A stretch of 64,000 bases of DNA from Arthrobacter yangruifuii (GTDB lineage Bacteria > Actinomycetota > Actinomycetes > Actinomycetales > Micrococcaceae), in NCBI RefSeq assembly GCF_009192775.1, contig NZ_VTFX01000004.1, positions 434,001 through 498,000 of the forward strand, in the 5' to 3' direction. Positions 2-8,002 of the stretch are shown piece by piece; positions within the stretch are counted from its first letter, which is position 1, and every line of letters begins with the position of its first letter. A model generated the notes under the pieces. The model ran no database searches. It was not told where the DNA came from and was given only the letters and a program-made list of their open reading frames with translations. A program made the position numbers and the translations under genes.

Positions 2-1705
2 CTCAGTGAGGGGCTGCTGGCAGAGGCGAGCGCGGCCCTCACCGCCCTGGTCCCGGCCGAGGACGAGGAGAACGAATACGGTATCCTCTCCGCACGGGTC
101 GCCGAACTCATCGAGAAGAAGAAGGCCCTGCTCCAGAGCTACCACCGGTCCATGGCAGCAGGTGATTTCCCCTCCGCATTGGCTGCCGTGACGGAGGCCA
201 TGCGGATTGACCGGGCGGATGACAACCTGGCCGCCCTGCAGGATTCCATCCCGCCGGCCGCGCCCGCGTCCCTGGCGGCGCGGGTTGAAGGGACCAGTGT
301 GCTGCTGCGCTGGCCGCAGGTCGAGTCGCTGGAGTACACGGTGGTCCGGGAAGAGGGCAGCGTCCCCGCCACCCCGCAGGACGGCACCGTCCTGGCCACA
401 CGGATCCGTGCCGGAAGTTATTCCGACACGGCAGCCCCGGCGGGCAAAACCGTCAATTACAGCGTGTTCGCCAGCCGGGACGGGAAGGTGTTCTCCGGTC
501 CCCGAACCGATTCGATCGCTGTCCTTCCTGCGCCCACCGGCCTCACCGCCTCATCGGATCCCACCAGTGCCCTCATCACCTGGTCACGGCCTGCGCAGGC
601 TGCCGGTGTCGTGGTGACCCGCTTGGGTCCGGACGGCAGCCGGATCGAAACCGAGCTGGCGAGCGGTTCGTCCTTCCGCGCCGCAGGACTCCGGACGGGG
701 GCCAGCTACCGTTTCTCGGTCAAGGCCTATTACCTGCTGCCGGACGGACGGAAGTTCTCCGAGGACGCCTCCCTCGTCGTCATTCCCCGGGGCGAGGCCA
801 CGGCCGTGGCTGATCTGCGCCTCACCGGCCCGGACTCCGACGGGATCATCCGGGCCACCTGGAATAGCGCTGACGGCTTCGACGTCGAGCTGTGGAGGTT
901 CCCCCTCCTCAACGACCTGCCCCCGCACCGCATGACGCTGCAGGAGGCCAAGGCCCGGGGCGGGCAGCCCATCCCCCGCCTGCCCGGCGGCGGAAAATCC
1001 GGCAGCGAGACACGCATGCTGTTCAAGGCCTTCGCAGGAATCAACGCGGTAGTCCCCCTCACCGTGGACGATGCCGGTTTCCTCGTTGGCAACAGTGTCC
1101 TTTCGGGATCCGCGCCGCAGCCTACAGCCGTCCTCGCCGAAGCCTTCGGTGATGACCTTCGGGTGTCGTGGGAATGGCCGCAGGGCGACTACATCATGGA
1201 AGTCGCCTGGGAGGTTGCCGGAGTTCCGCGGACGCGCCGGGTGACCAGGGCCAGATACCGGGCGGACGGCGGCGTGAAGATCGTCAACGGTGCCGCGGCG
1301 GACAAGCTCACCATCGCCACCGTGATCACCGCCGACGGCGAACGGCTGGCGTCGAACCCCCTTCCGGTCCCGCTGCAGGCCCGCCCCCGGCTGACCGTCC
1401 GCTATGAAGTACGCATCAAGCGGGGTTTCACCGGGAACGTGGCGTGCGTGGTCTCGGCCGAATCCAGCGCCGCGGGTTCCGCAGTTGAGGCGGCCCTGGT
1501 GCTCAAACGCGGGTCCATCATGCCCACCAGCAGCGCTGAGGGTGAGCTGATTGAGAACCTCACCCTCGATTTCACCGCGGGCACCAGCTCGCGGCACGAG
1601 CTTTCCCTCGGCAAGGTCAAGTCGCCTTTCTGGCTGTCGTTGTTCACGCAGGACAACGGCGAAACCACTCTCATTGCCCCGCCGACTTCCCAATTGAAAG
1701 GCTGA
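2..1705 (+). CDS. Fibronectin type III-like repeat protein (5' end outside window)
   Basis: The frame is open from the first bases of the window, so the N-terminus lies upstream; an internal ATG at 152 is not preceded by a good ribosome binding site. The first visible 70 residues are charged and helical (EKKKALLQSYHRSM), like a coiled or TPR-like helix pair. They are followed by at least two fibronectin-III-like beta sandwiches (starts PAAPASLAARVEG and PAPTGLTASSDP, each with the W and Y/F pattern of the fold) and two further beta-rich segments. No membrane helix or signal peptide is visible in this part. It ends one base before the zinc-ribbon GTPase gene, so it is the first visible gene of the GTPase operon. 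An adaptor or ligand-binding role is inferred from fold and context only. Confidence 0.75.
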   Translation, partial: LSEGLLAEASAALTALVPAEDEENEYGILSARVAELIEKKKALLQSYHRSMAAGDFPSALAAVTEAMRIDRADDNLAALQDSIPPAAPASLAARVEGTSVLLRWPQVESLEYTVVREEGSVPATPQDGTVLATRIRAGSYSDTAAPAGKTVNYSVFASRDGKVFSGPRTDSIAVLPAPTGLTASSDPTSALITWSRPAQAAGVVVTRLGPDGSRIETELASGSSFRAAGLRTGASYRFSVKAYYLLPDGRKFSEDASLVVIPRGEATAVADLRLTGPDSDGIIRATWNSADGFDVELWRFPLLNDLPPHRMTLQEAKARGGQPIPRLPGGGKSGSETRMLFKAFAGINAVVPLTVDDAGFLVGNSVLSGSAPQPTAVLAEAFGDDLRVSWEWPQGDYIMEVAWEVAGVPRTRRVTRARYRADGGVKIVNGAAADKLTIATVITADGERLASNPLPVPLQARPRLTVRYEVRIKRGFTGNVACVVSAESSAAGSAVEAALVLKRGSIMPTSSAEGELIENLTLDFTAGTSSRHELSLGKVKSPFWLSLFTQDNGETTLIAPPTSQLKG

Positions 1706-1706
1706 C

Positions 1707-2915
1707 ATGCTCTCGCTGTTTTCTTCCGCCAAGGCAACCGCCTGCCCCTATTGCTACGCCGAACTCAACGTGGGCAAAGTGGCCTTCCGCTGCAGCGGGC
1801 GCGGAGCCCCGGGCAGGACTCCCTGCAAGCCGGTTCCCGATCGGAAACGCGAAGAGGTCTTCTCCGACGGCACCCCGGTGCTTCCGGCGATCTCCGAGCC
1901 CGGGCAGCCGGAGGGACAGCGAAAGGACCTGCTGGGGAAATCCACGGTCACCTGCGGCGACTGCGGAGGCGAGAGCGGGATCCGCATGTGCCCGTCCTGC
2001 CATAGCATTCTGCCGCGCGGAATCGACAACAATTCGCCGCTGTTCGGCCTTATCGGGGTCCGCAACTCCGGCAAGACCGTCCTGTTGTCCGTCCTTCACC
2101 GCGAACTGGTCCAGAGCGTTGCCCGCCGGTTCGACGCGGCGATCGATACGCCGGGCGGCTCCTCGGGTTTGGCCCGCGACCTGGCCATGTTTGAAAAAGA
2201 CATGGCCCGCGAAGGCGGATCCCTTCCGCCGCAGACGGCCGCCAGCGGCACCGTGAAGAAAACGCCCGCTGTCTACGAGTGGAAATACAGCCGTAAGGGC
2301 AAAACCGCGTCCACCATTTTCTCCTTCTATGACACTGCCGGTGAGGATGTTTCCCGGCAGGAAACCGCCATGATGCAGCAATACCTGGGGCAGGCATCAG
2401 GAGTCATTCTCCTGCTGGATCCCTTCGCCTTCCCGGAAAACCGCGAGCGGGCCGAGCAGCTCGGTGCTGCCGCCGGTGACGCGGACACGCCGGAATCGGC
2501 CCTGGACGGGATTACCTACGTCCTGCAGACCGCACACAACGTCAAGAGCAATAAGAAGATCAAAGTTCCCCTCGCGGTGGTCGTTTCCAAGATTGACGCC
2601 TTCTTTGACCAGATTCCGGCGTCGCATCCGCTGCGCCAGCCGTCCTCCTCCAGCAGTGCCTTCGATGATGCCGAGTCCCGGACCATTCACGACCACGTCA
2701 TGGCTCTGGTGGCGAACTGGGGCGGGGACGGCCTGCTCCGCAAACTCGAACATGAGTATGACAACTTCCGCCTGTTCGGCGTCTCCGCGCTCGGTGCGGA
2801 GCCGGATTACCGCTCCGGCTCCGTCAGCTCCCGCGGGCTGCTCCCGCACCGCGTTGCGGACCCCTTGCTGTGGCTCATGGCGGACCGCGGATTCATCCCC
2901 AAGAGCGAGGGGTAG
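1707..2915 (+). CDS. Zinc-ribbon double-GTPase-family protein (soluble)
   Basis: 402 residues. The N-terminus carries two treble-clef or ribbon-like cysteine clusters (C13-x2-C16 with C29 and C40; C83-x2-C86 with C95-x2-C98). A P-loop NTPase domain follows: Walker A GVRNSGKT at 117-124, DTAGE at 209-213 (G3-like) and SKID at 294-297, a variant of the GTPase NKxD motif. No membrane segment is seen. This matches the DO-GTPase class described by comparative genomics next to GAP1 proteins in predicted NTP-dependent conflict systems. It lies between the FnIII-like gene (1 base gap) and the GAP1-like gene (9 bases). The second GTPase of the pair is at 4958-6640. GTP rather than ATP use is inferred from the SKID motif. 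Confidence 0.8.
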   Translation: MLSLFSSAKATACPYCYAELNVGKVAFRCSGRGAPGRTPCKPVPDRKREEVFSDGTPVLPAISEPGQPEGQRKDLLGKSTVTCGDCGGESGIRMCPSCHSILPRGIDNNSPLFGLIGVRNSGKTVLLSVLHRELVQSVARRFDAAIDTPGGSSGLARDLAMFEKDMAREGGSLPPQTAASGTVKKTPAVYEWKYSRKGKTASTIFSFYDTAGEDVSRQETAMMQQYLGQASGVILLLDPFAFPENRERAEQLGAAAGDADTPESALDGITYVLQTAHNVKSNKKIKVPLAVVVSKIDAFFDQIPASHPLRQPSSSSSAFDDAESRTIHDHVMALVANWGGDGLLRKLEHEYDNFRLFGVSALGAEPDYRSGSVSSRGLLPHRVADPLLWLMADRGFIPKSEG

Positions 2916-2924
2916 GAGTCTACG

Positions 2925-4955
2925 GTGGCATTCGAGAGCAGTATCTACACCGATGTCCGCGCCGGCGAAGCAGTTGACGGGGTTGACGGGTTCAACTTCC
3001 AGGCCGTGTCCCCCGGAATGGACGCGGGCAGCCAGCAGGTGATCCGGGAACTGATGCTTCACCAGATCAGCACCCGGTGGCCGATGGACCGTGAGGAACG
3101 CGACCATCCGCCGTCGGCGGCTTTTCTGCAGCGGGACGGGCGCTTCTATTTCTCCCGGGGCATGTCGACCGGAGCCACGGAAAACGGCCGGCGCGGGAAC
3201 CAGCTGACCCAGGCCGTGGTCACCAGATCAGTGGACGACATCCGTCCATACCGCCCGGCCCAGATCCTCGGAGCCGTGAACTGGACCCTGGAAAAGGCGG
3301 CCGGCACCACCTGCGAGCAGTGGTTCGCGCCGCTGGAACTGAGCAGCGGTTTCGAAGCCGACATGCTTCTTTCCTGGCTGCGCAGTGACTCCTGGATGCA
3401 GCAGGTGCTCCCGGCGTACCTGACCATGCTCGAAGAGGCCACCGGGGAGACCCCGCAAAAGGTCATACTCATCCATGATGACCTGCAGGTTGTTCTGCGC
3501 TGGATGGCGCTCGGCACGCTCCTGCTCGACGCCTCGGCCGCGGACCGCCTGGAACTGCGCGCCTTCGTCACGGACCCGTTCCAGACGAGCGCCAAGCTCG
3601 TCGGTATGCATCCGGAACTGATGCGGGGTCCGCTTACGGACACCCACACCATCAACATCCTGGAACGGACACACTCCAATATTGAGCCGTCCGAGTCGGC
3701 CCGGAAGGTGCTTGACTGGGCGCTGCGCCTGGACACCTTCGATGCCCTCGAGGTCATCGACATCGCCCAGCGCTGGATGCCGGCCATCGGCGTCCGTTAC
3801 GGCGCCGCCGGTGCCGAAGTAGTCACAGGCACCCGTGTGGCCCGCGTCGGGCGGGAAGAATGGGACCTGGGAGTATCCATCATTGAGGGGCTGGCCAGCA
3901 ACGGGCTGCGCAGCGATCTGGAGCTCTATCTCGATGAGCTGGCCGAAGCCGTCTCCTCCTACCGGCTGCAGAGCGCCGATGACTTCGCCCGCGCGGCCCG
4001 GGCCACCCGCTTCGCCGTCACCTCCGCAATCCCCGGACTCGCCGAAGCGCTCCTCGCGCCGACGTTCGAATCGCTTGCGGCTTCGCCCGAATTCGCTTTG
4101 ACGTGGGTGCGTGAACTCAACCCCGACGGCGGATGGGTATGGCCCAGGCTGGAAGCACCGGAGTCCCTCATGGAAAACCTCACCCAGGTCATTCTCGAGG
4201 CTCCGGCGGCCGCTCTCAGCCCGCTGCTGGTACTGGTCAAACCGCTGTCCGCCCTGCTGGCGGCTGACAGGCTCGGACCTGCAGTGGACCGGGCCGCCGC
4301 GCACGTCAGGCGAAACCCGCACAGCGGCCCGGAGGTCAACGGCTGGTACGGGGCGTCCCGGGCCCGCGCCGCGCTGCGGGGGCAGCTGCTGAACGAAGTT
4401 TCGGCCGTCGATCCGGCATTGCCCAGCACCACCTTCGAAGAGCTGCGCGCCGGCACCTGGGATTTCCTGGCTCCCGGGGAGGAACAGCACACGGGCACCT
4501 CCGTGCGGTTCCTGGGCATGCTCGATGCCGCCCGGGTTGCCCGCGAAGACGTGGCCAACCGTGAAGCGCTCCTGCGCACGCGGACACGACGCCCCGACCC
4601 CGGGTCCTGGCGGCGGGTTCTCTACGCCGATACCTCCCTGCCGAGGGACGCCGATTTGTGGGTGGCCTGGATCGAGACCGTCGGCGCCAGCAGCAACATG
4701 CAGGAACACATCAAAACCGGGGTCGAGCGGATACTGCAGCTCTCACCCAGGGAAGTCAATGCCAGGGACACCAATCGCTGGCTGGCCCTCCTGGAGGCTC
4801 TGGAGGTACGCAACCATCCGGATCCGGAACTGGAAACGGCTATTCGAGACCTGACGGACTTCATTGACTCCATCCCCTCCCTTAAGGACCGCGCATCCGA
4901 CGCCGGACGCAGAGTCAAGGGCATGATCCGCCGCCGCACCCCCAAGGAAGAATAA
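2925..4955 (+). CDS. GTPase-associated protein 1 (GAP1-N2)-like protein
   Basis: 676 residues starting at GTG 2925, with TAGGAG just upstream overlapping the previous stop. The N-terminal 130 residues (ESSIYTDVRAGEAVDG, then FYFSRGMSTGATENGR and RPYRPAQILGAVNW) resemble the GAP1-N2 domain, which is known only from gene neighbourhoods containing paired GTPases. A mid region around 150-270 is alpha/beta, and the C-terminal 400 residues are largely helical with no transmembrane segment or catalytic motif I recognise. It sits between two zinc-ribbon GTPase genes with gaps of 9 and 2 bases, the arrangement expected for GAP1. The family is predicted to regulate or bind the GTPases; no activity has been shown that I know of. 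Assignment rests on pattern and context, not on a search. Confidence 0.7.
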   Translation: MAFESSIYTDVRAGEAVDGVDGFNFQAVSPGMDAGSQQVIRELMLHQISTRWPMDREERDHPPSAAFLQRDGRFYFSRGMSTGATENGRRGNQLTQAVVTRSVDDIRPYRPAQILGAVNWTLEKAAGTTCEQWFAPLELSSGFEADMLLSWLRSDSWMQQVLPAYLTMLEEATGETPQKVILIHDDLQVVLRWMALGTLLLDASAADRLELRAFVTDPFQTSAKLVGMHPELMRGPLTDTHTINILERTHSNIEPSESARKVLDWALRLDTFDALEVIDIAQRWMPAIGVRYGAAGAEVVTGTRVARVGREEWDLGVSIIEGLASNGLRSDLELYLDELAEAVSSYRLQSADDFARAARATRFAVTSAIPGLAEALLAPTFESLAASPEFALTWVRELNPDGGWVWPRLEAPESLMENLTQVILEAPAAALSPLLVLVKPLSALLAADRLGPAVDRAAAHVRRNPHSGPEVNGWYGASRARAALRGQLLNEVSAVDPALPSTTFEELRAGTWDFLAPGEEQHTGTSVRFLGMLDAARVAREDVANREALLRTRTRRPDPGSWRRVLYADTSLPRDADLWVAWIETVGASSNMQEHIKTGVERILQLSPREVNARDTNRWLALLEALEVRNHPDPELETAIRDLTDFIDSIPSLKDRASDAGRRVKGMIRRRTPKEE

Positions 4956-4957
4956 GC

Positions 4958-6640
4958 ATGCCTTACGTCATCGCCTTCGTCGTCATCCTCGGTATCGCGA
5001 TCTTCGTTGTCTGGATTGCGTTTATCTATCTGATGAGGCTTCTGGGTTTCCTGATCGCCTGCAGCGTTGTGGTTGCCGCCTTCACCTTCACGGCCGGACT
5101 TCTCTGGGGCGTGGTTCTTCCCATCCGGGTGCTCCGCGGCCGCGCCTCGGTGACCCCGCGGGTTGCGACGCCGCAGCTGATCAGGGACGGACAAATCTTC
5201 AAGGGCGCACCCAGGGGCGCGGCCAGGGAATTCGGCTGGGACGCGGCCTGGCCGCTTTATGTTCCCTATCAGCTCCGCTTTGACGCCGCAGCTGTCCGCG
5301 GCGAGGCCGCGCTGCTCGTTGAGGACGTCCGCGGGCTGGCAACCCGTTGGTGGCCCACCTCCGATAAAGTCCTGCTGCAGGCCCTTCTCAGTGTCGCCAG
5401 GTTCCTGCTTCTGGGAATTCCCGCATACGCGTACATTCTCGGGTTGTTCAGCGGGATCTTCCTCTGGATGACCATCGTGGGGGTTATCCAGGCCCTGGTC
5501 GTCAGTGCCCAGTGGATCACCACCCGGCTGCTGCGGATCCGCGAAAGCCGGCACATGAAAAAGCATGCTGCCACCGTCAAATGCACCCGGTGCTACCGGG
5601 AAACCAACATGCCCAGCTACCGGTGCCTCAACCCGCAGTGCCCGCGCATCCACCGGGACGTCAATCCCGGTCCGTTGGGTATCCGCACCAGGATCTGCGA
5701 ATGCGAGGAGAAAATCCCGCTCACCGTAGCGGCGGCATCGCGGGCGCTCACTGCCCACTGCCCGTTCTGCGATGCGGAACTGCCCCGGGGTGCCGGATCA
5801 CGGCGCGTAGTTGTTGCCCCCGTCTTCGGTTCAGTGGGGTCCGGAAAGACCCAGTTCCTTGCCACCACGGCAACGGCGCTGCACTCCATGAGCGAAGACG
5901 AAGGCACCCCTACCGGGCTCAGCGCGCTGACTCCCGCCGCAGAGCAGTTTCTTGCCAACTCGGTTGAGGAAACGTCCGCCGGCAGCGCCCCCCTGAAAAC
6001 CCAGCATCATGACCGCCCGGAGGGCTACCCGTTCCTGATCACCGGGCACGGATCCGACGTCGAGCTGCACCTCATGGATGCCGCCGGGGAGAACTTTGTC
6101 CACTCGGACAGCTCCCGCTCGCTGGGGTACCTGGACCTGAGCACCTCGCTCCTGTTCCTTCTGGATCCGCTGACGATCCCCGAAGTCCGCGAGCAGCTGA
6201 CGTTGTCCGGAGTCGGCGTCCAGGTTGCCCAGGGACAGGCGAGCGATGCCTATGCAAGCGTCGTGGACCGGCTGCGGGACAGCGGTGAGGACCTCAGGAA
6301 AAAGAAGCTGGCGGTGGTCGTCACCAAGGCCGATGTCGTGGGGCAGATTTTCGCCTCCGAACCGCTGCCGGAGGACAGTGCAGGTGTACGCGGCTGGCTC
6401 TACTCCCATGGAGGTGACAACCTCGTCCGGCGTATTGAGGCCGATTTCCAGGAAGTGGCCTACTTCGGCGTGGATTCAACCCCGGGCGTATCCGCCCGTT
6501 CCGCGTCCCACCCGCTGCGTGTCATCGACTGGGTCCTGGCCAACGGCGGTGCCGAACCGCTGTCTGCGGGTCCCGTGGATCCACCGTCGCCGGGCACCGA
6601 CGCACCGGACGAACTCAACAAGGAGGCGGCACACTCGTGA
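4958..6640 (+). CDS. Membrane-anchored zinc-ribbon double-GTPase-family protein
   Basis: 560 residues. Two hydrophobic helices at about 3-55 and two more at about 145-190 anchor it in the membrane. They are followed by zinc-binding clusters (C209-x2-C212, C223, C228, C247, C249, C268-x2-C271) and a P-loop domain: GSVGSGKT at 291-298, DAAGE at 374-378 and TKAD at 456-459, the last being the G4-type guanine motif. The soluble GTPase at 1707 has the same zinc-ribbon plus GTPase order but no membrane helices, so the two look like a functional pair. The stop overlaps the GTG of the next gene (GTGA at 6637-6640), implying translational coupling. A role at the membrane as sensor or effector platform is inferred. 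Confidence 0.8.
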   Translation: MPYVIAFVVILGIAIFVVWIAFIYLMRLLGFLIACSVVVAAFTFTAGLLWGVVLPIRVLRGRASVTPRVATPQLIRDGQIFKGAPRGAAREFGWDAAWPLYVPYQLRFDAAAVRGEAALLVEDVRGLATRWWPTSDKVLLQALLSVARFLLLGIPAYAYILGLFSGIFLWMTIVGVIQALVVSAQWITTRLLRIRESRHMKKHAATVKCTRCYRETNMPSYRCLNPQCPRIHRDVNPGPLGIRTRICECEEKIPLTVAAASRALTAHCPFCDAELPRGAGSRRVVVAPVFGSVGSGKTQFLATTATALHSMSEDEGTPTGLSALTPAAEQFLANSVEETSAGSAPLKTQHHDRPEGYPFLITGHGSDVELHLMDAAGENFVHSDSSRSLGYLDLSTSLLFLLDPLTIPEVREQLTLSGVGVQVAQGQASDAYASVVDRLRDSGEDLRKKKLAVVVTKADVVGQIFASEPLPEDSAGVRGWLYSHGGDNLVRRIEADFQEVAYFGVDSTPGVSARSASHPLRVIDWVLANGGAEPLSAGPVDPPSPGTDAPDELNKEAAHS

Positions 6641-6858
6641 CCGAACGGAAAATCATGTCAAAGAGCCAGCCGGTGCGTTACTGGGTCTTCCGGAATGTGG
6701 TCTCAACACTTCAGCTCCTGGTGGTGGCGGCACTGCTTGGGGCCGTGGCTCTGTGGCTGCTGTCCGACAACAACGGCAAGGACCTGTGGAGCGGGTACCT
6801 GGAGTTCTCCCGCGGGGTGTCCAACTGGGCGAAGGGGCTGAGGCTGCCATGGGAGTGA
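6637..6858 (+). CDS. Small single-pass membrane protein of the GTPase operon
   Basis: 73 residues beginning at the GTG that overlaps the preceding stop; an in-frame ATG at 6655 is the alternative start. A basic N-terminus is followed by one hydrophobic helix at about 24-44 (VVSTLQLLVVAALLGAVALW) and a short amphipathic tail. It overlaps the NERD gene by 10 bases. I recognise no family. Position between a membrane GTPase and a nuclease suggests an adaptor or anchor in the same complex, but this is inference. Confidence 0.7.
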   Translation: MTERKIMSKSQPVRYWVFRNVVSTLQLLVVAALLGAVALWLLSDNNGKDLWSGYLEFSRGVSNWAKGLRLPWE

Positions 6859-7730
6859 AGCTTCGGGTTTTGATGAAGCTGCTGGGGCTCAGCGGGTCGT
6901 CCGCGCCGAAAACCGCAGGCCGGCCCGTTCCTCCCCGGAATACCGGCCGGACCGGGATGCCGCGTACCGGGACGCCGCGTACCGGAACGAACCCCGGAAC
7001 GCATCAAGGGCAGTATGAGCGTCCGAAGCCGGCACCGGAGGTGGGGGCCACTCGGGCAAGACCCCTGGCGAAGGGCCGGATGACCGGTTTTGAGCCCGCA
7101 AAGCTGCGCAGTTACCAGGCACCGGTCTCCCTCCGGGCGCACGGACTGGCCGGCCTGGGGCTCTTCGACTCGGACTTTGACCGCGCCAGCATCTATAACG
7201 GGCAACGGGGCGAGGTGGGCTTCTACAAGGCACTGTGCCTGGAGGACCTCATCGACGACTGTTCCTCCTACTGGTCTGTCGCAATGCCCGGCGACGACGG
7301 TACGGCGCGGCCCGATTCCAAGTACCAGACCGACGTCGACTGCATTGTGGTGCAAGGCAAAACCATGTACCTCATTGACCTGAAGTACTACGCTTCCGGC
7401 GATGTCACCTGGCACACCCGAGACGGTCAGTGGCTTCTTTGCCGCGACAACACAACGAGGGAACAAGTCGGCAAACCCCGGCACATGTCCCGGAACATGG
7501 CCATGGCCCAGGACCGTTTCCGTCGGATCTTCCCCGGACTGCAGATCCAAAGCTACGTAGTGCTGATTCCCACCCAGGACGGGCTCGGGGATATTGCGCC
7601 CGGGACGGCCTGGCCCGGAAACGTGGAGCTGATCGATCTGCCCGCCATGCTGGCCGTTATCCGTGCCGGCGGCGCGGGCTATGCCGACGATGCCACCCAG
7701 CAAAAACTCCTGGCTCTCCTCAAGGACTGA
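6849..7730 (+). CDS. NERD (nuclease-related) domain protein, last gene of GTPase operon
   Basis: 293 residues from ATG 6849, chosen because it overlaps the end of the upstream gene by 10 bases; the same frame stays open further upstream but only inside the preceding genes. Residues 15-75 are low-complexity and rich in Pro, Arg, Gly and Thr (repeats of RTGTP type), probably a flexible linker. From about 110 a restriction-endonuclease-like fold is visible: GE at 121-122, DVD at 162-164 and D177-L-K179, the acidic and lysine positions expected of a NERD/PD-(D/E)xK active site. No extra domain is seen. Being last in the operon and immediately followed by a terminator, it is the best candidate for a nuclease effector of the system. 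Confidence 0.8.
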   Translation: MGVKLRVLMKLLGLSGSSAPKTAGRPVPPRNTGRTGMPRTGTPRTGTNPGTHQGQYERPKPAPEVGATRARPLAKGRMTGFEPAKLRSYQAPVSLRAHGLAGLGLFDSDFDRASIYNGQRGEVGFYKALCLEDLIDDCSSYWSVAMPGDDGTARPDSKYQTDVDCIVVQGKTMYLIDLKYYASGDVTWHTRDGQWLLCRDNTTREQVGKPRHMSRNMAMAQDRFRRIFPGLQIQSYVVLIPTQDGLGDIAPGTAWPGNVELIDLPAMLAVIRAGGAGYADDATQQKLLALLKD

Positions 7731-7769
7731 GCAGGCGTCCGACGGCGGCGTTCGACGTCGGACGCCTGC
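7731..7769 (+). terminator. Terminator-like hairpin ending the GTPase operon
   Basis: It begins directly after the NERD stop codon. A perfect 14-bp stem (7731-7744 pairs with 7756-7769) encloses an 11-base loop. There is no clear T-run, only cgggcttctcccc after it, so it may act as a GC-rich hairpin terminator or as a 3' stabiliser. Confidence 0.7.
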
Positions 7770-7822: not shown

Positions 7823-8002
7823 ATGAATGATCTACTGAACGCCCTCGGCAGCGTGGTCGCGCTTATCGGCGGCTTCGCGGCTATGTGGTGGGTGACCACA
7901 CCCAAACGGTTCCCCGGCCGGCGGCACACCCGGGGCCTGATCGCCGTGGTATTTTTCGGCGTCTCCATCATGCTCTATGCCTACGCAGGCAATTTCGAAT
8001 AA
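7823..8002 (+). CDS. Small two-helix membrane protein
   Basis: 59 residues (MNDLLNALGSVVAL...). An AGAGGAAGG-like purine stretch (7801-7809) lies 13 bases before the ATG. Two hydrophobic segments (about 4-23 and 38-55) are separated by a basic loop (TPKRFPGRRHTR), giving a hairpin membrane protein. It stands alone after the terminator at 7731-7769 and before the DUF3000 gene, so it is probably not part of the GTPase operon. No family recognised. Confidence 0.6.
   Translation: MNDLLNALGSVVALIGGFAAMWWVTTPKRFPGRRHTRGLIAVVFFGVSIMLYAYAGNFE

Follow-up and report, generated by a model that had tools for sequence, protein, structure and literature searches.

A NERD nuclease-like gene in an HSP70-type GTPase/GAP1-N2 unit of Arthrobacter yangruifuii

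We analysed a 64,000-nucleotide stretch of the Arthrobacter yangruifuii genome (GCF_009192775.1, contig NZ_VTFX01000004.1, forward-strand positions 434,001 to 498,000), referred to below as the window (G000:C4:434001-498000; its locus is L002). The window opens with a gene unit in which two GTPases and a GAP1-N2 protein are followed by a NERD nuclease-like protein. An earlier note on this DNA had described the unit as a six-gene operon closed by a hairpin and as a candidate conflict system. All six open reading frames (ORFs) are indeed on the + strand, with inter-gene spacings of 1, 9, 2, −4 and −10 bases, and Pfam profile searches returned the families that had been named (fn3, DO-GTPase2 twice, GAP1-N2/M and NERD). 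The unit is, however, larger than the note had it. The window edge cuts the FnIII gene, co-directional HSP70 and GrpE genes precede it outside the window, and a gene for a 59-amino-acid (aa) protein follows the hairpin. The full unit has nine genes, in the order GrpE, HSP70, FnIII protein, DO-GTPase2, GAP1-N2, membrane DO-GTPase2, one-helix peptide, NERD protein and 59-aa protein. The features inside the window are:

2..1705, + strand: FnIII-repeat protein, 3′ part (fn3 match; the full ORF, L002:9006-11705, encodes 899 aa and begins 995 bases ahead of the window edge)
1707..2915, + strand: soluble zinc-ribbon DO-GTPase2, 402 aa (Pfam DO-GTPase2, 1e-8; GVRNSGKT, DTAGE, SKID and CxxC motifs)
2925..4955, + strand: GAP1-N2/GAP1-M protein, 676 aa (Pfam GAP1-N2, 1e-24; GAP1-M, 6.6e-12)
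4958..6640, + strand: membrane zinc-ribbon DO-GTPase2, 560 aa (Pfam DO-GTPase2, 4.3e-13; motifs and hydropathy)
6637..6858, + strand: one-helix membrane peptide, TM73, 73 aa (conserved family, in 7 of 27 HSP70-type loci)
6849..7730, + strand: NERD nuclease-like protein, 293 aa, lacking hydrophobic segments (Pfam NERD, 1.1e-5)
7731..7769, + strand: hairpin after the NERD gene (−36 kcal/mol, z −4.3)
7823..8002, + strand: 59-aa two-helix membrane protein (related ORFs near GAP1 in L063 and L073)

The HSP70 of the unit (531 aa; Pfam, 4.9e-90) keeps its nucleotide-binding motifs and is encoded next to a GrpE-type protein (Pfam, 2.3e-9); another HSP70, encoded elsewhere in the window genome, scores higher. 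A single fn3 stretch of the FnIII protein was above cut-off (1.4e-6), and Pfam gave no DnaJ or TPR match in it, a TPR-like stretch ahead of the FnIII part being visible by eye only. Both DO-GTPases have intact GTP-binding motifs, CxxC pairs and the Walker B glutamate (DTAGE, DAAGE), and the membrane form carries four N-terminal hydrophobic segments and, by hydropathy, no C-terminal one. At the hydropathy threshold of 1.6, HSP70 and GAP1 each show one segment too, and lone segments near this value are weak indications. The GAP1 protein has a C-terminal region, in which no GAP1-C domain matched at E up to 1, and its structure model, built from two sequences, reached a mean pLDDT of 41.3. Sequence searches of the PDB with the NERD, GAP1 and membrane GTPase proteins returned one chance-level match (0.13) and two empty results.

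Judged by its domains, this core corresponds to the HSP70 theme of the GTPase-centric GAP1-N2 conflict systems predicted in 2020 (PMC7159879), and the unit appears to be a variant of that class. As the theme is described in the main text of that paper, the two have in common zinc-ribbon DO-GTPases, one with four N-terminal membrane segments, a GAP1-N2/M protein, an FnIII protein, and linked HSP70 and GrpE genes. The earlier note had therefore recognized the right families but gave an incomplete system, since HSP70 and GrpE are what place the core in the published theme. The second GTPase in the paper has four N-terminal and one C-terminal transmembrane helix, whereas the membrane GTPase of the window lacks the latter; in the main text that helix describes two-GTPase systems and does not define the family, and its absence is not exclusionary. 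The FnIII protein of the theme is described there as "typically" fused to DnaJ or TPR. Unlike the systems in the main text, the window unit has a separate conserved one-helix peptide, and NERD takes the place that a second HSP70 fills in relatives. The main text contains 0 occurrences of NERD, and the supplements may list NERD or the peptide. Searches of the literature by family name found no experimental study of GTPase/GAP1 conflict systems among the matches listed. Measured against the main text of the 2020 paper, the core is known, and the peptide family and the NERD protein in the slot are new elements of a class that is predicted only.

The nine-gene unit has been gained or lost as a block. 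A gene that we take to be DUF3000-type lies after the unit and was found in 29 of 29 genomes of the genus, whereas GAP1-N2 was found in 2 of the 29. The distance from the presumably aldolase-type gene on the other flank to the DUF3000-type gene is 11.9 kb in the window genome and 92-398 bp in 24 of the 27 genus genomes without GAP1-N2; these empty sites, together with loci of other Actinomycetes in which the core genes stand in the same order, show that the genes travel together and pass the refutation test that the earlier note had set. The remaining three GAP1-N2-free genomes (G019, G002 and G003) have a flank gap of 1.3-1.6 kb, which in G002 holds, by eye, a single FAD oxidoreductase-like ORF (L230:12292-13467) at the same intergenic site as the window operon. 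Arthrobacter zhaoxinii (G027, locus L003) carries the unit at the same site as the window genome, and we refer to these two loci as the window pair. Eight unit proteins, GrpE not among them, are 79-94% identical between the two species, with w of 0.04-0.18; the eight genes compared, NERD included, are under purifying selection.

The hairpin reported earlier is present (14 uninterrupted pairs, one 1 × 1 mismatch and two more pairs, with z taken against shuffled sequences) and has no T run on its 3′ side. It does not close the unit, because the 59-aa gene lies within the inserted block, where we place it because blastn finds no counterpart of it in the genomes with an empty site. Relatives of the 59-aa protein occur near GAP1 in L063 (2.9e-9) and L073 (1.4e-4). 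A sigma-70 scan gave 0 promoter-like sites, and the strongest of 17 terminator-like sites (8.7 expected) lies behind the aldolase-type gene, not at the NERD hairpin.

With the window genome included at each level, GAP1-N2 was found in 8 of 395 genomes of the family (7 above the curated cut-off), 19 of 396 of the order (18 above) and 50 of 394 of the class (50 above); a Corynebacterium glutamicum control genome also matched. A GAP1 scan of genome contigs gave one relative only. We took the DNA around the matches from all 75 positive genomes, which yielded 78 loci. A GAP1 ORF was recovered by a profile that we built in 68 of these and not in the other ten, and 27 loci are HSP70-type, a number that includes two doubtful cases (L099, where the HSP70 label falls on an 890-aa ORF that also scores as FnIII, and L115, where the HSP70 and GrpE genes are oppositely oriented). 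The recurrent order in other Actinomycetes loci is GrpE, HSP70, FnIII, GTPase, GAP1 and membrane GTPase. Some HSP70-type loci lose or rearrange parts, and no membrane GTPase stands behind GAP1 in L063, L073, L075, L115 and L167.

The NERD match of the window protein scored 26.3 bits against a cut-off of 22.1. GxxGE, DxDC and DxKxY do not vary among the 6 relatives that were aligned, and GxxGE, DxD and DxK are kept in all 12 members checked by pattern; we take these conserved acidic and D/ExK-type residues to be catalytic. In both Arthrobacter species the NERD gene overlaps the peptide gene by 10 bases. A profile of the subfamily matched 11 of 396 order genomes and eight places at 1e-20 or better, two of which lie in GAP1-N2 operons, those of the window and of G510, both of which had been in the profile. 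G510 belongs to another family of bacteria. Its NERD, of the same subfamily, is joined to an FtsK-like ATPase domain (3.7e-5, slightly below the cut-off for the ATPase family) and is encoded in an HSP70-type operon whose parts are rearranged; a 95-aa two-helix ORF separates the NERD-ATPase gene from the membrane GTPase gene. Upstream of the NERD-ATPase gene and next to this operon, a protein encoded at L151:8893-9963 gave weak TPR and DnaJ matches, both below cut-off.

The operon members of the subfamily differ from the stand-alone members in their membrane anchor. Maximum hydropathy ahead of the NERD domain was 0.90, 0.66 and 0.33 in the three operon members, which have no hydrophobic segment there. 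Of the 11 stand-alone members, ten reached 2.0-2.7, and the other was borderline at 1.5 (L198). All three operon NERDs adjoin a small membrane protein. The contrast gave a Fisher p of 0.003 with all members and 0.013 with the window pair counted once, or 0.011 and 0.04, respectively, when L198 was called anchorless. The stand-alone set includes four members (L215-L218) that match the subfamily profile only, and not Pfam NERD at 0.01, and two weak matches (L219 and L220).

The 73-aa peptide has one hydrophobic segment by hydropathy, a possible alternative start at ATG 6655 and no Pfam family above cut-off. Peptides of its family, which conserve P..YW..R and a terminal P-W, lie 3′ of the membrane GTPase gene in the window pair, L059, L067, L155, L156 and L157. 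The peptide and GTPase genes overlap by 4 bases in four of these seven loci (the window pair, L059 and L067) and are separated by 16 bases in L155 and 12 in L156, the start in L157 being uncertain. A survey of 35 genomes of one further family added no locus. The idea that the peptide arose when longer membrane GTPases split off their C-terminal helix was set aside. Of the 7 peptide-bearing loci, 0 have such a helix on the membrane GTPase, against 3 of 13 loci that lack the peptide; this is suggestive only, since the peptide profile does not match those tails.

What stands behind the peptide varies. The peptide, which the earlier note had called a small membrane linker, is not specific to NERD: NERD follows the peptide in the window pair, and the other five of the seven peptide-bearing loci lack it there. 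A second HSP70 lies directly behind the peptide in L059, L155, L156 (where it is cut by the contig end) and L157, and four other genes separate the two in L067. These four (L067:974-5929, G446) encode a 322-aa protein that is zinc-ribbon-like by eye, a papain-fold Gln-deamidase toxin-type protein (5.9e-17), an 80-aa ORF and a HerA-type ATPase; the run is another filling of the effector slot. A vWA gene stands behind the second HSP70 in L059 and L063. Proteins encoded behind the second HSP70 in four loci (L059:14754-15380, L063:5548-6174, L155:3712-4425 and L157:3781-4479) share an N-terminal leader, WxRxxFxxxGxTExPxGxxxxRL, which precedes a vWA domain in two of them and an unassigned region of another kind in the other two; it is possibly an adaptor leader.

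In a midpoint-rooted tree of the FnIII protein (30 rows), L002, L003, L063, L073, L067, L059 and L155-L157 form one clade (100/100), with the window pair sister to L063 and L073 (100/99). L059, from the family of the window genome, clusters at 100/100 with three f36 loci, a grouping that points to transfer of the system as a whole. Since six of the seven other loci in the clade have a second HSP70, parsimony would make the second HSP70 the older occupant in this clade and NERD the newcomer.

NERD-type and membrane-placed nucleases also occur in known systems. BREX type 2, as presented in PMC12839542, likewise includes a NERD-type domain in a multi-gene system, in PglW, where it is combined with kinases and proposed to be a backup, possibly suicidal nuclease. 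Unlike BREX type 2, the unit gave no Pfam match to a kinase, helicase, PglX or PglZ among its proteins, and the window NERD protein reached only 0.085 against the PglW model. SNIPE (PMC13190303) is a nuclease acting at the membrane, the same spatial logic as proposed below for NERD; it differs in that the nuclease itself is membrane-bound, and GTPase, GAP1 and HSP70 are absent from its abstract. Defence pairs of HerA with a nuclease, such as HerA-DUF4297, resemble the G510 fusion of NERD to an FtsK/HerA-like ATPase, whereas the window NERD lacks an ATPase domain.

From these observations we propose that the unit is a GTPase- and chaperone-gated nuclease effector at the membrane, a variant of the HSP70-theme GAP1-N2 systems, a proposal to which we give even chances. 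The FnIII/GAP1 side would sense an invader or an envelope disturbance, the paired GTPases would switch the system, in all likelihood at the membrane, and HSP70/GrpE would hold or remodel the assembly. The one-helix peptide would dock a terminal effector, itself exchangeable, to the membrane. At this locus the effector would be the NERD nuclease, recruited to the membrane or released there to cleave DNA that enters the cell or, when control fails, host DNA. The earlier note had the GTPases license NERD; this licensing, and an immune role of NERD, we infer. For the class as a whole an immune role is the prediction of the 2020 authors, and it would fit the patchy distribution. As a component of the unit NERD is well supported by its catalytic-type residues, by purifying selection and by the relative in a second HSP70-type operon; it is not a general component of HSP70-type systems. 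A more tentative idea, which we hold with more doubt than belief, is that the peptide and the membrane GTPase together form the dock and that a self-anchored NERD subfamily lost its anchor on joining, perhaps twice (in the window pair and in G510), its placement then passing to GTPase and chaperone control. The comparative claim that we offer is accordingly one of a membrane anchor in cis versus in trans for control of a nuclease by chaperones and GTPases. If that idea holds, the arrangement would be the switchable equivalent of phage-DNA nucleases that are bound to the membrane at all times. The NERD variant gives the systems predicted in 2020 an effector assayable by DNA cleavage, with active-site residues that can be mutated, which makes the GTPase/GAP1 prediction directly testable.

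Several results weigh against this proposal. NERD as a family is common, with 61 matches in 19 of the 21 HSP70-type genomes searched, but it lies near GAP1 in only three of the 21 (G000, G027 and G510), and the occurrences in the window pair share one site and are probably one event; no NERD was found near GAP1 in the stretches fetched from HSP70-type genomes outside that search. The NERD structure model, built from two sequences, was unusable (mean pLDDT 31.9). The flanks of the unit look housekeeping-like, with no defence island, and the plasmid collection gave no GAP1 or membrane-GTPase match. PADLOC and PHROGs returned nothing for the GTPases, GAP1, the peptide or NERD, the sole PADLOC match being the unit HSP70 (model PDC-M61B, 2.4e-6). 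Slot content was not shown to follow the FnIII tree better than chance (89 of 500 shuffles were as low for the five-locus label and 45 of 200 for all labels), and composition was flagged as unusual in many rows of that tree, the window pair included.

A role in envelope stress or membrane protein quality control, with HSP70/GrpE and the membrane GTPases repairing damage and NERD serving as an accessory enzyme of nucleic acids without immune function, is the most serious competitor, though we think it rather improbable. HSP70 and GrpE are chaperone families, several unit components are membrane proteins, and PMC11237479 predicts a role in membrane-related stress for a DO-GTPase found in PSP operons. 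Such a role sits poorly with a distribution as patchy as 8 of 395 family genomes, with gain or loss as a block, and with terminal genes that vary and include the papain-fold toxin-type domain in L067.

NERD might instead be a recent, for instance plasmid-derived, passenger that acts autonomously behind the operon, for example to exclude plasmids, and is unconnected with the GTPase switch. Its relatives occur on seven Arthrobacter and Bifidobacterium plasmids, with no GTPase or HSP70 annotated nearby on the three examined, and its proximity to GAP1 is confined to the window pair and G510. We nonetheless consider a passenger unlikely, given the 10 bases that its gene shares with the peptide gene in the two species, the purifying selection on NERD, the differently placed NERD in the G510 operon and the absence of the hydrophobic region from the operon members only. 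A role of NERD in processing DNA during conjugation or replication, and not as an effector, seems very improbable, even with the subthreshold FtsK-like fusion in G510 and the HerA-type ATPase in the L067 gene run. ATPase-nuclease pairs are known in defence as well, and those neighbours of the window locus that were scanned belong to no conjugation or replication families.

Phage records gave no NERD or GAP1 match, and viral contigs, where GAP1 was not searched, gave no NERD match; a NERD mention in PMC12409351 was set aside as not relevant here. Two of the Bifidobacterium plasmid relatives of NERD (L199:17461-18882 and L200:16482-17795) have N-terminal hydrophobic segments and lie directly 3′ of an ImmA/IrrE peptidase gene. 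A DnaJ-membrane-NERD fusion (L219:8604-10079; DnaJ, 2e-13) occurs in G526, a GAP1-N2-positive genome, far from GAP1, and is another tie of NERD to HSP70. Finally, two f36 genomes encode 1051-aa ORFs one gene behind the membrane GTPase (L091:2001-5156 and L090:13324-16479), the former with a CHAT domain (1.3e-55).

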